From the NCBI GenBank assembly GCA_017302795.1, contig JAFLCB010000003.1, positions 214,650 through 278,649 of the forward strand: DNA of 64,000 bases. Reading direction: 5' to 3'. The notes beneath the pieces are model-generated. The model searched no databases and was not told the origin of the DNA. It was given only the letters and a program-made list of their open reading frames with translations. The translations under genes were made by a program, and so were the position numbers. Of the stretch, positions 5,625 through 9,708 are shown piece by piece. The stretch is from Deltaproteobacteria bacterium (GTDB taxonomy: Bacteria > Bdellovibrionota > Bdellovibrionia > Bdellovibrionales > JAMPXM01). Every line of letters begins with the position of its first letter. Position 1 is the stretch's first letter.

Positions 5625-6929
5625 GTGACGCCCTTGAACACCGAGCAGCAGAATTTACCTGATTCAGTTTTCGCGTCCACGCGGCCACGCCGCATGGGAT
5701 TTTATCGATTCGTCGTTTCGGCGATCGCGGCCGTTTTTGTTCTTCTTCCAGGACTGTCCAATGCTTTGACATGCGAAGAATGGCTTGAGGGCCAGGCGGC
5801 GCGAATCAAATCAGAAGATGTGTTGCGCGACTACGATGCAAGCACGACTCTCTCCCAGCAGGTCCGTGACAATGCCCCCTTTTACTGGGCTGAAGCTCGC
5901 GAGCAAACTGCGCGAATCAATTGGTCGGCATGGCCAACGATTTTGAAATCAGATGTGATCAGCGTTGGCGATCTACATTCTGGTCAGTTTTCACCCATCC
6001 ATGTTCCTGGGAAAGGCGTCATCTATACTCTTTTCGACGCAAAAGATCTCGGCTATGCACCAGCACTCCTCGATATCAATCGGCTGGTGTTGAACACGAT
6101 TGCGATCGCCAAACGTCGACGAACAGTGAGCGTTCAAGAGCAAGATGAAATTGCTCGGAGTATTTTTGAAAACTATCGAGCTGGACTTTTGCGGGAGGAC
6201 TTCCAGCTTACCGAGCAGTATCGAGAATTTATGCCCTCAGAAAAGAAGTTCAATCGGAAGCTAGAAAAGAAGATGGACAATAAACTTGATGAGAGTGGCC
6301 AGCTTTACGTCGACGGCGAAGTCCTGCAGCCGCTGTCGGTGGCATCTCGAAACCTTAAACTGACAGTCGATAAAATGCGAGAAGCTATCGAATCCAATCT
6401 GCGAGCGCGACTTGGTTGGGGTCACCTTTTGGACGCCATCGTCAAAGTCCCAGAGCGCGGTGGCTCAAAGGATCAAATCCGAATTCTTGTTTTATTTAAA
6501 CTAGCTAATGGTGAGACCGTTATGAAGGAGCTCAAGCGGGTAGGGGAAACCGCCATCGCTGCTTACCAAGATCAGGTACCGAACTCTGAAATTCAATCCG
6601 CGGCTTCTAAATACTTGGATTACGACATACTTGTGAATTTCCCTCAGGTTAAAATTGGCGATGCGACGTTTACGTTGCGCGATAAAAAAGTTGACCCGAT
6701 TTTCGTGCCTTACAAGCAAAAGTATCCATCGGATTTCGAAGAGTTGATGTCTATGGCCCATCATCATGCACAATGGGTGGGAACGTTTCATGGTCGGCAG
6801 CTTTTTGCCCGGCAAGCGGGAAGCAACCGAGTTTTTGCTGAAGCGCTTCGCGATTCCCAGCCCCAAGTGATCAATTCATTAAATAGTTTCAACCGGCGTC
6901 ATCTGCGAACCTTGGAGGAGAGGCTGTGA
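5625..6929 (+). CDS. Exported DUF2252-like (kinase-fold) protein
   Basis: A 434-residue protein with a GTG start preceded by GGAGAC. After a 25-residue polar lead comes a hydrophobic signal sequence ending near LSNALTC, so it is probably exported. Residues about 113-140 carry GDLHSGQF followed by LFDAKDLG and DINRL. This pattern matches DUF2252, which shares the fold of aminoglycoside phosphotransferases (family consensus GDxHxxN, then FDxxDFD and WDxxRL). The expected Asn of the catalytic loop is Gln here. A later HHHAQWVGTFHGRQ block resembles the C-terminal family helix. Activity and substrate are unknown. It is first of three coupled genes placed between murD and ftsW. Confidence 0.75.
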   Translation: MTPLNTEQQNLPDSVFASTRPRRMGFYRFVVSAIAAVFVLLPGLSNALTCEEWLEGQAARIKSEDVLRDYDASTTLSQQVRDNAPFYWAEAREQTARINWSAWPTILKSDVISVGDLHSGQFSPIHVPGKGVIYTLFDAKDLGYAPALLDINRLVLNTIAIAKRRRTVSVQEQDEIARSIFENYRAGLLREDFQLTEQYREFMPSEKKFNRKLEKKMDNKLDESGQLYVDGEVLQPLSVASRNLKLTVDKMREAIESNLRARLGWGHLLDAIVKVPERGGSKDQIRILVLFKLANGETVMKELKRVGETAIAAYQDQVPNSEIQSAASKYLDYDILVNFPQVKIGDATFTLRDKKVDPIFVPYKQKYPSDFEELMSMAHHHAQWVGTFHGRQLFARQAGSNRVFAEALRDSQPQVINSLNSFNRRHLRTLEERL

Positions 6930-8116
6930 TGAATCGAGTTGCAAAAATTCTTGTGGCGCTCGGCGCGTGCTCGTCCATGCTTGGTCAAACTGTGTTTGCG
7001 ATGAATTGTGAAACCCAGTTCATCGATATGGTACCACACCACTCTGCGGCAAAGCGGGCTGATGAAGCATGGGAAAGTAAGGGCACGCCTGAAAAAATCG
7101 TCACTGTTCTTTCAGCGATTGGCGAAAATGGTTTGCCTAAGATCAATATTAGGTCCCTTGAAAAAGATGGAAAAATTCTGCTCGGCATAAAGTCACAAGG
7201 CCAAGAATCGATCCTAGCTATTTATCGGTTTGACGCTTCCGTCGAGGGATCTGAGTTTCGTCTCGTAGAACTGCGTCAAAAAAGTAGCGGCAATTTGGAC
7301 TTCGTCATTTCTGAAATGCCGGTCGATAAAACAACTGGTCAGCTTTTCCCCGAAGTTGAAGCTCATCCCGCGATTGCGGCGATCCGTGGAAGTCTCGCCT
7401 TGCGCTTAGGTCCCGCGGTAACAAACTACATTCGCGAAACTGGCGAGTGGTTTGACTTTGCAAATGCAAAGGACTTGCGAGATCTCAATAGCTTTTCGAC
7501 TCCTTCGGCTGCTTTACGAATTCTTCACCTGAGGATGCGAGGCCGATGGGTGAAAGAGGTTTTGTCGAAGGACTTGTTGAAGCAGGTCTTCCGCGGTCTT
7601 TTGTTGGGCGGAGTAGTCTTTGGTTCTAGCTATTTAGCCCAGAAGCTTTCCGACGCTGACGAAAAAACTCAAAAAACAATCCTGGACTCTATGGCCGCGC
7701 TTTTGTTGATCGAGCTTGCGAACCTCGAGGCAGATGCAAAAGTCAAAATTCCAGAAGCTGAAAGAGAACGAATCGTGCAGTCGGCACTTTCGTTGAAAGG
7801 CGCTAAGGCTGGTGACGGTGAAATATTAAAGCTCTCACAAATTGAAGTCGCGGCCACGACAAATAGCGCCGCTGGAAATCCTCAGCAATCTCGCGGTACG
7901 GAAAAGTTCTGGGTGCTGGATCGTTTGTCGGGGCGGGTTTTCGTTGGCCTTGCCGAAGGAACCTATGACCTCAAACTAAAAGCTCGAAAGGGCGAGTTGC
8001 CACGAGTGGAGCTCAACACGAGAGCCCTTGTCGAAATAAAGTCGAAGGAAACCCCGATAACATATCAAATTGCTTTAGCTAAATTTAGATCAATAGAAAA
8101 GGTGAACGTAAAATGA
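6929..8116 (+). CDS. Exported protein of unknown function
   Basis: No family recognised. I chose the ATG at 6929, which overlaps the preceding TGA; a GTG at 6926 in the same frame would add one residue. GGAGGAG at 6914-6920 serves as ribosome-binding site. The 395-residue product begins with a signal peptide ending near VFAMNC. A glycine-rich hydrophobic stretch near residue 210 could be a membrane segment or a buried helix. The last third is mixed charged and beta-like. Overlaps with both neighbours imply tight co-translation and a shared task. Confidence 0.8.
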   Translation: MNRVAKILVALGACSSMLGQTVFAMNCETQFIDMVPHHSAAKRADEAWESKGTPEKIVTVLSAIGENGLPKINIRSLEKDGKILLGIKSQGQESILAIYRFDASVEGSEFRLVELRQKSSGNLDFVISEMPVDKTTGQLFPEVEAHPAIAAIRGSLALRLGPAVTNYIRETGEWFDFANAKDLRDLNSFSTPSAALRILHLRMRGRWVKEVLSKDLLKQVFRGLLLGGVVFGSSYLAQKLSDADEKTQKTILDSMAALLLIELANLEADAKVKIPEAERERIVQSALSLKGAKAGDGEILKLSQIEVAATTNSAAGNPQQSRGTEKFWVLDRLSGRVFVGLAEGTYDLKLKARKGELPRVELNTRALVEIKSKETPITYQIALAKFRSIEKVNVK

Positions 8117-9708
8117 AGCGACTGGTCCTAAACAACAAAAATGTGATTTCGAATCTCGTCGTGCTTGCGGCGTCGGTCAACGCGGCGGCGTTCAGTGGAG
8201 TCGGTGCGGAAGCGCGCTTCCTTCATCCTGTTCCACAGGGTGGGGAGGAAACATGCCTCGTGCCGATGCATTATAGTGCGAGTTCCAAACTTCTTTCCAA
8301 CCTGCAAGAAGCGGAAGATCGAGAGGACGAGCTAAAGCTTTGTCGTTTGACGATCTACGAGGGCATGGGACCAAAGCTGAAAGTTGAATCAATCGGCGCT
8401 CTTAAATTCACGCCGCCCGACGCAAAAGAGATTTTGGCTTGCCCGAAATACAACAGCACCAATCCTGGAACAAACCTCGTTGAGGTTCCAGGCAATATGA
8501 CCTACGGCGAAGCTAAAAAGCTTATGTGTGTACCTAAAGATAAAGCACTTGCGGCACTGAAAGCCGCCAACGATGAGCTCGATGAAAAAGAGTATGAAGG
8601 AAAGTACGACTTGGATGCAAAGTTCAAAAGTACGATTTCGTGCTCTGCGACTGCGTCGGCCCTCGGGTATTACCACGTATCTCGACTGCTCGGCGGAGCA
8701 GGGCGTGTGCCGGTGGCTGTGGCGCGAACGCTGTCTCGGACTTCGCACCATGAAGTTGCCACACGCGCAGTGAATCACTTCTCGGGAAGCGATGAGATCA
8801 TCGCGAAAAACTGGCGATCATTTCAAAGTGCATCGGATGCGGCGGCCGCCGGTAAGCCAAACCCAAAAATCTATACTGATAAAGGAAATTATGTTTACGG
8901 AAGCCTTCAGAAGAACTTGAAGGGTGAAGAACGTTACACTGAAATCGGCGGTCGTGGATCATATGATGATCGTTACACTCGATTTCTTGGCCAAGATCCG
9001 TTTCTCCGCGTGGCGAATCCAGCAGAAGTAAAGAATATACCTCCCGCAGGAGTTCAAACAGCACCAGCAGCGCGGACGTTTTCTGAGATGGCGCCCCAGA
9101 TTGTCCAAATGCAGGATGTGGCAGACATGGTCTTGATGGACACACTTATGGCTCAAGACGATCGTATTGGAAACATTCACGTAAAGCCGATGGTACTGGA
9201 AGCCGGTTCACAAAAGCCTCGCAAAATGAAAAAGGCGGAAGAGAAAGCACTTGAAGCACTTCAGAAGCTGAATAAGTCTTTTCCACTTTCTGCGGCGGTA
9301 GCGGCAGAGGCCTCTTCACAAGTGTTTGCTGACGGAAAGGCAGTTTTTGTACGAGCCATGTATTTGAAGGACAATGACTGCGGGGTCGATACCGATAATC
9401 GAGGCAATCAAATGCGTCGAAACAAGGCACTAGAAGCCGTTCGCCACATGAACCCAGAAACCTACAAGCGCTTTATGGCGTTTGCTGAAGAAGTCGAAAG
9501 TGACAGATTTAAAACTTTTGCTTTCGAAACTTTGCTCTATCGACCCGTTGAATACCAGGGCCACCGTTACTCGTTAAAAGAAAACGTTCGCCATGCCGTA
9601 AAAATTCTCAGCGAAAATTGCGAACGCGGACTTTTGAAGCTCGATCTTGTCCAGAGCTTTGATGAAAAAGGAATTTGGGTTCGACCTCCTGCCGTTTCCT
9701 GTCGCTAA
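8113..9708 (+). CDS. Exported protein with kinase-like catalytic motifs
   Basis: A 531-residue protein whose ATG overlaps the preceding stop (ATGA). The N-terminus is a Sec-type signal sequence (hydrophobic, ending near VNAAAFSG). A helix with SATASALGYYHVSRLLG precedes the segment VLMDTLMAQDDRIGNIH at about residues 339-355. The latter resembles the DRxxxN catalytic loop of HipA, Fam20 and PI3/4-kinase-like proteins. About 75 residues later YLKDNDCGV sits where these kinases carry their metal-binding Asp. The kinase assignment is inference from motif order only; no family is securely recognised. Several cysteines fit an oxidising compartment. A terminator follows directly. Confidence 0.75.
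   Translation: MKRLVLNNKNVISNLVVLAASVNAAAFSGVGAEARFLHPVPQGGEETCLVPMHYSASSKLLSNLQEAEDREDELKLCRLTIYEGMGPKLKVESIGALKFTPPDAKEILACPKYNSTNPGTNLVEVPGNMTYGEAKKLMCVPKDKALAALKAANDELDEKEYEGKYDLDAKFKSTISCSATASALGYYHVSRLLGGAGRVPVAVARTLSRTSHHEVATRAVNHFSGSDEIIAKNWRSFQSASDAAAAGKPNPKIYTDKGNYVYGSLQKNLKGEERYTEIGGRGSYDDRYTRFLGQDPFLRVANPAEVKNIPPAGVQTAPAARTFSEMAPQIVQMQDVADMVLMDTLMAQDDRIGNIHVKPMVLEAGSQKPRKMKKAEEKALEALQKLNKSFPLSAAVAAEASSQVFADGKAVFVRAMYLKDNDCGVDTDNRGNQMRRNKALEAVRHMNPETYKRFMAFAEEVESDRFKTFAFETLLYRPVEYQGHRYSLKENVRHAVKILSENCERGLLKLDLVQSFDEKGIWVRPPAVSCR

Follow-up and report, generated by a model that had tools for sequence, protein, structure and literature searches.

A three-gene operon between murD and ftsW that seems to encode an exported Fam20C-like kinase in Bdellovibrionota

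Organisation of the locus

The window analysed in this work is a stretch of 64,000 nucleotides from a member of the Bdellovibrionales (contig JAFLCB010000003.1, positions 214,650 to 278,649). It carries genes of the dcw cluster in the order mraY-murD-[P1-P2-P3]-ftsW-murG-murC-murB, where P1, P2 and P3 are three genes that the list of open reading frames places between murD and ftsW on the + strand. The flanking genes are identified by the NCBIfam models TIGR01087 for murD (E 5e-119) and TIGR02614 for ftsW (E 5e-97, slightly below the cut-off yet the best model); mraY, murG, murC and murB were also confirmed by NCBIfam.

P1 (5625..6929) encodes a DUF2252 protein, from a family of the kinase clan with flipped lobes; P2 (from ATG 6929 or GTG 6926 to 8116) encodes a protein of a weak family found beside P3 or DUF2252 genes; and P3 (8113..9708) encodes a protein with a predicted Fam20C-like kinase fold. 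Depending on the start of P2, the P1/P2 junction overlaps by 1 or 4 bases, and P2 and P3 overlap by 4. Hydrophobic, export-type signals were found by a crude test at the N-termini of all three products, in agreement with the Sec-type signals proposed when the sequence was first read. In P1 the signal starts 23 residues after the annotated GTG, which makes ATG 5694 the likelier start.

The triplet is bracketed by two intrinsic terminators on the + strand, each with a 10-pair stem followed by a T-run: one lies after murD, upstream of P1 (5513..5535, z -4.29), and the other after P3 (9723..9747, z -3.23). For both hairpins, 0 of 200 shuffles folded as well; because both are stronger than all the shuffles, the triplet seems to be transcribed as a separate unit. 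Open reading frames and hairpins therefore bear out the layout described in the sequence-only reading, that is, three genes with overlaps of 1-4 bases, flanked by murD and ftsW and by two strong terminators. A horizontal-transfer signature was also considered for P1-P3 and rejected, as GC and GC3 match those of the flanks.

P3, a Fam20C-like fold with conserved catalytic residues

The AlphaFold2 model of P3 has a pLDDT of 92 and a pTM of 0.91. When it was compared with the PDB by Foldseek, the first match was Fam20C (5yh0, E 2.3e-4, probability 1.00) and the second another Fam20C chain (E 2e-3, probability 1.00); the hits after these are nearly all PI3K/ATM kinases, with HipA behind them, and have a much lower probability. 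TM-scores against Fam20C are modest (0.32-0.45), and in the viral structure library no match was found below E 0.95. The order of the elements fits a kinase: a strand with K172, a long helix (323-345), the loop D350-R-I-G-N354, two strands and finally D420-N421-D422. The HipA/Fam20/PI-kinase likeness guessed from motifs thus proved right at the fold level, and the model supports a kinase-like fold of P3 closest to that of Fam20C.

In the alignment of P3 with its relatives (n=38), K112, K172, R205, D350, R351, N354, D420-N421-D422, H445 and D511 are invariant, so that both the DRxxxN loop and the later DND site pointed out from the sequence are conserved throughout. Fam20C binds ATP via K271 and the DFG-like D478 (PMC5413348). 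P3 retains all the residues that an active kinase should have. Among the cysteines, C48 and C77 are invariant and C110 and C139 nearly so, which fits oxidised, exported proteins; signal-like N-termini were found by the crude test in 33 of 37 relatives.

The fold likeness has no counterpart in sequence families. P3 has no match in Pfam, NCBIfam or PADLOC, and no convincing sequence homologue in the PDB. The Fam20C profile PF06702, one of those proposed for checking the sequence-only reading, matched none of the P3 loci in 44 genomes at E up to 10 and none of the alignment members. For CotH (PF08757), the Pfam scan and hhalign against P3 were negative, and the profile alignment of P3 with DUF2252 gave nothing. 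P3 is by sequence neither a Fam20C nor a CotH protein, and it is therefore called Fam20-like by fold and not as a family member. A plasmid search with P3 gave no match, and no defence families were found with PADLOC in this analysis.

Relatives of P3 are present in 44 of 291 Bdellovibrionota genomes, and the genome of the window has a paralogue elsewhere. A very divergent homologue was observed in another genome (L080, G006).

P1, a DUF2252 protein with an atypical active site

P1 matches DUF2252 (PF10009) with an E of 1e-4 and 21.8 bits, the cut-off being 22.3, or with 23.3 bits when neighbouring stretches are included; its orthologue in KLAP46 is above the cut-off (E 2.5e-9, 37 bits). The invariant DUF2252 set is present in the P1 alignment (D116, H118, D138, D141, E302 and K304), and the motif order is that of swapped lobes, with GDxHxxN and D..D (C-lobe) before the glycine-rich GGS and E-x-K (N-lobe). 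By profile and motifs, P1 is thus a member of DUF2252, as the pattern noticed in the first product had indicated.

DUF2252 has been placed in the Pfam PKinase clan with its N- and C-lobes flipped (PMC9758233), and it is on this clan and this paper that a kinase fold of P1 would rest. The AlphaFold2 model of P1 (pLDDT 88) gave no significant match in a whole-chain Foldseek comparison with the PDB, which the swapped lobe order could cause, and a Pfam scan after the lobes were rearranged revealed no other kinase family. P1 is a protein of a PKinase-clan family, with a putative kinase fold.

The active site of P1 departs from its family at two points. D-A-K-D replaces D-x-D-D, with K in place of the D of other members both in the window and in KLAP46, and the near-invariant N121 is Q in the window and N in KLAP46. 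The Q at this position means that P1 of the window may be weak or inactive. These substitutions, together with the scarcity of ATP outside the cytoplasm, would fit P1 and P3 both being pseudokinases, with an exported binding or structural role. Nevertheless, K172, D350, N354 and D422 are invariant in 38 diverse P3 proteins, which is unusual for pseudokinases, and we consider this explanation very unlikely.

P2, an exported partner

P2 has no family in Pfam or NCBIfam, and direct searches with it match KLAP46 only. A profile (HMM) was built from five proteins, P2 itself being left out. The genes of two of them (L059_5 and L063_4) lie directly upstream of P3 relatives; those of two others (L062_8 and L065_8) are also upstream, in the same operon, but separated from P3 by one gene, which encodes an exported protein. 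These four genes come from four genomes. The fifth protein (L135_7) comes from the window's own genome, where its gene shares 4 bases with a DUF2252 gene. Among 880 ORFs, this HMM recognised P2 with an E of 2e-9 and its KLAP46 orthologue with 1e-10. Profile comparison gave a probability of 96, or of 76 without the bridging L135_7 (score 45.8 against 22 for the best shuffle). These similarities place P2 in a weak, separate family of exported proteins whose genes adjoin those of P3 or DUF2252, and nothing in them marks it as a kinase.

The window's own genome contains a second exported set (L135, 4128-7664; G000:C7), formed by a P2-like protein, a DUF2252 protein and a third exported protein (L135_5). 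L135_5, from its motif order, and L062_7 looked VTC-like by eye; this was rejected, as profiles give no support.

Association of P3 with DUF2252 proteins and phosphatases

The partnership of P1 and P3 recurs in other genomes. In a genus different from that of the window (G245), the P3 and DUF2252 domains are fused in one exported ORF of 823 aa. Elsewhere, DUF2252 comes directly after P3 (G279), the two genes are 6 bp apart (G151), or P3, a phosphatase and DUF2252 adjoin (G036). Within 2 kb of P3 there is a DUF2252 gene at 5 of 24 places, spread over five genera (expected 0.06), and on the P3 tree the pairing changed at least five times on well-supported branches. The fusion and these changes argue that P1 and P3 are functionally tied. 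A 732-aa ORF of another genome (L138, G080) joins a DUF2252 domain to a C-terminal extension to which no kind was assigned.

Exported phosphatases are also neighbours of P3. Calcineurin-type metallophosphatases adjoin it at 15 of 17 places (expected 0.045) and PTP-like lipoproteins at 17 of 34 (expected 0.09); each link requires no more than about two changes when mapped on the P3 tree, and hence few independent events lie behind it. In the window itself no phosphatase is adjacent to P3, and all three partners (DUF2252, metallophosphatase and PTP-like lipoprotein) are missing from 21 of 54 P3 loci. The PTP-like lipoproteins (alignment A3; L050, L051 and others) show a strictly conserved HCWxGxH[AS][SN] instead of CX5R; their activity is uncertain, as the usual catalytic arginine is missing.

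The phosphatases bear on the type of reaction. P1 and P3 could be exported kinase-fold enzymes of another chemistry, such as AMPylation, glutamylation or the phosphorylation of sugars or lipids as in Fam20B. Fam20B phosphorylates xylose, and some pseudokinases are known to carry out AMPylation or polyglutamylation (cited in PMC7948968); the atypical active site of P1, with D-A-K-D for D-x-D-D and Q for N, would agree with this. However, P3 holds all the residues expected of an active kinase and the recurrent phosphatase neighbours fit phosphoryl chemistry, so that a different reaction appears unlikely.

In one genus (g11), a gene for a VTC polyphosphate polymerase adjoins P3 in 12 loci. In six of them, those with a longer stretch available, this gene belongs to a VTC-OEP-HlyD-DUF4956 cluster that lies on the other strand and converges with P3, and in G279 an OEP-VTC-DUF2252 set was found with 4-base overlaps. 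CotH kinases are known beside a VTC-type polyphosphate polymerase and DUF4956 (PMC7112168).

The murD-ftsW gap

Across the order, murD and ftsW are almost adjacent in some genomes and up to about 14 kb apart in others. The triplet is found at this site in two species of one genus, that of the window and KLAP46 (taken to be the same genome as G294), the latter being the only case among 20 murD-ftsW loci inspected, which were picked mainly for large gaps. The gap is empty in one congener (G231) and contains other genes in another, and many relatives have 1-14 kb of unrelated genes there, often on the opposite strand. The gap is a variable insertion site across the order (L094-L101). At the empty site of G231 (L090, about 1478-1671), a 22-base unit, ATGAGGTTGAGCTTCAGCTCAC, is repeated about five times in tandem.

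A link with wall or envelope assembly had been suggested from the location, and a module tied in this way to murD and ftsW would explain why the triplet lies inside the dcw cluster in both species. Nevertheless, the order murD-P1-P2-P3-ftsW is not kept across the Bdellovibrionales, one congener having an empty site and another other genes; moreover, the terminators isolate the triplet, and relatives of P3 and P1 sit elsewhere in the other genomes examined. With a variable gap, inserts on the other strand and such a rare triplet, location says little on function. The place of the triplet among cell-wall genes is probably incidental, and a role in wall assembly is highly improbable.

A possible kinase module outside the cytoplasm

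The operon, its export signals, the fold and conserved catalytic set of P3 and the repeated P1-P3 association, including a fusion, were all obtained by computation; kinase activity, complex formation, the role of P2, the substrate and the phosphate donor are inferred from them. One product of the triplet seems to be an exported protein kinase similar to Fam20C, the secretory kinase of animals, and we favour, with some reserve, the view that the operon is an exported Fam20/CotH-like kinase module which phosphorylates an extracytoplasmic substrate. P3 would be an atypical Fam20/CotH/PI-kinase-like kinase. It would be secreted by Sec, probably with disulfides that stabilise it, and would move phosphate onto a protein or polymer outside the cytoplasm. 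P1 may assist it, either as another catalytic subunit or as an activator, by analogy with the pseudokinase Fam20A and Fam20C, and P2 could be an exported scaffold or anchor holding both together or to the membrane. The exported phosphatases beside P3 in relatives might reverse the reaction.

There is little ATP outside the cytoplasm, which counts against a kinase module; prey or host ATP, leaked ATP and polyphosphate are possible phosphate donors. A wider proposal, quite unlikely at present, is a dedicated extracytoplasmic kinase-phosphatase system of Bdellovibrionota, which would combine a new Fam20-like family with a swapped-lobe DUF2252 kinase; its phosphate would come either from ATP of the prey or host or from polyphosphate that the neighbouring VTC systems make.

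To our knowledge, only a few kinase-fold enzymes, such as CotH, are known to phosphorylate exported proteins of bacteria. P3, together with another exported protein of kinase fold, points to a phosphorylation system that would work beyond the cytoplasm and is so far unexplored. If this is true, a family that is present in 44 of 291 genomes, with recurrent links to another kinase-fold protein as well as to exported phosphatases, would provide concrete genes for extracytoplasmic signalling, as well as an entry to the question of the phosphate source in a phylum with bacterial predators (Bdellovibrio).

Comparison with known systems

Compared with other members of DUF2252 (PF10009), the P1-type proteins stand out because they are exported and occur in pairs with, or fused to, members of the P3 family; that of the window differs also in having Q for the N of the catalytic loop. 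CotH (PF08757), a bacterial kinase of the spore coat and also of exported kind, is distantly related to Fam20C (PMC7821199). It shares with P3, in one Bdellovibrionota genus, the polyphosphate-polymerase and DUF4956 neighbours (PMC7112168), whereas P3 lacks any sequence or profile match to it. The genome of the window carries a separate gene for an exported kinase of the CotH family (G000:C4:259041-259847; L144).

Fam20C (PF06702), a Golgi and secreted kinase of animals, is the best PDB fold match of P3, and both proteins have in common export, the catalytic D-R loop, a DFG-like metal Asp and, probably, disulfides. On the other hand, P3 is bacterial, has insertions of its own, has no detectable match to the sequence family and reaches only a modest TM-score. 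The Fam20A-Fam20C pair offers an analogy for the operon, as two exported kinase-fold proteins, one of them possibly inactive, act jointly (PMC7948968); P1 and P3 differ from it in not being paralogues, and their complex is putative.
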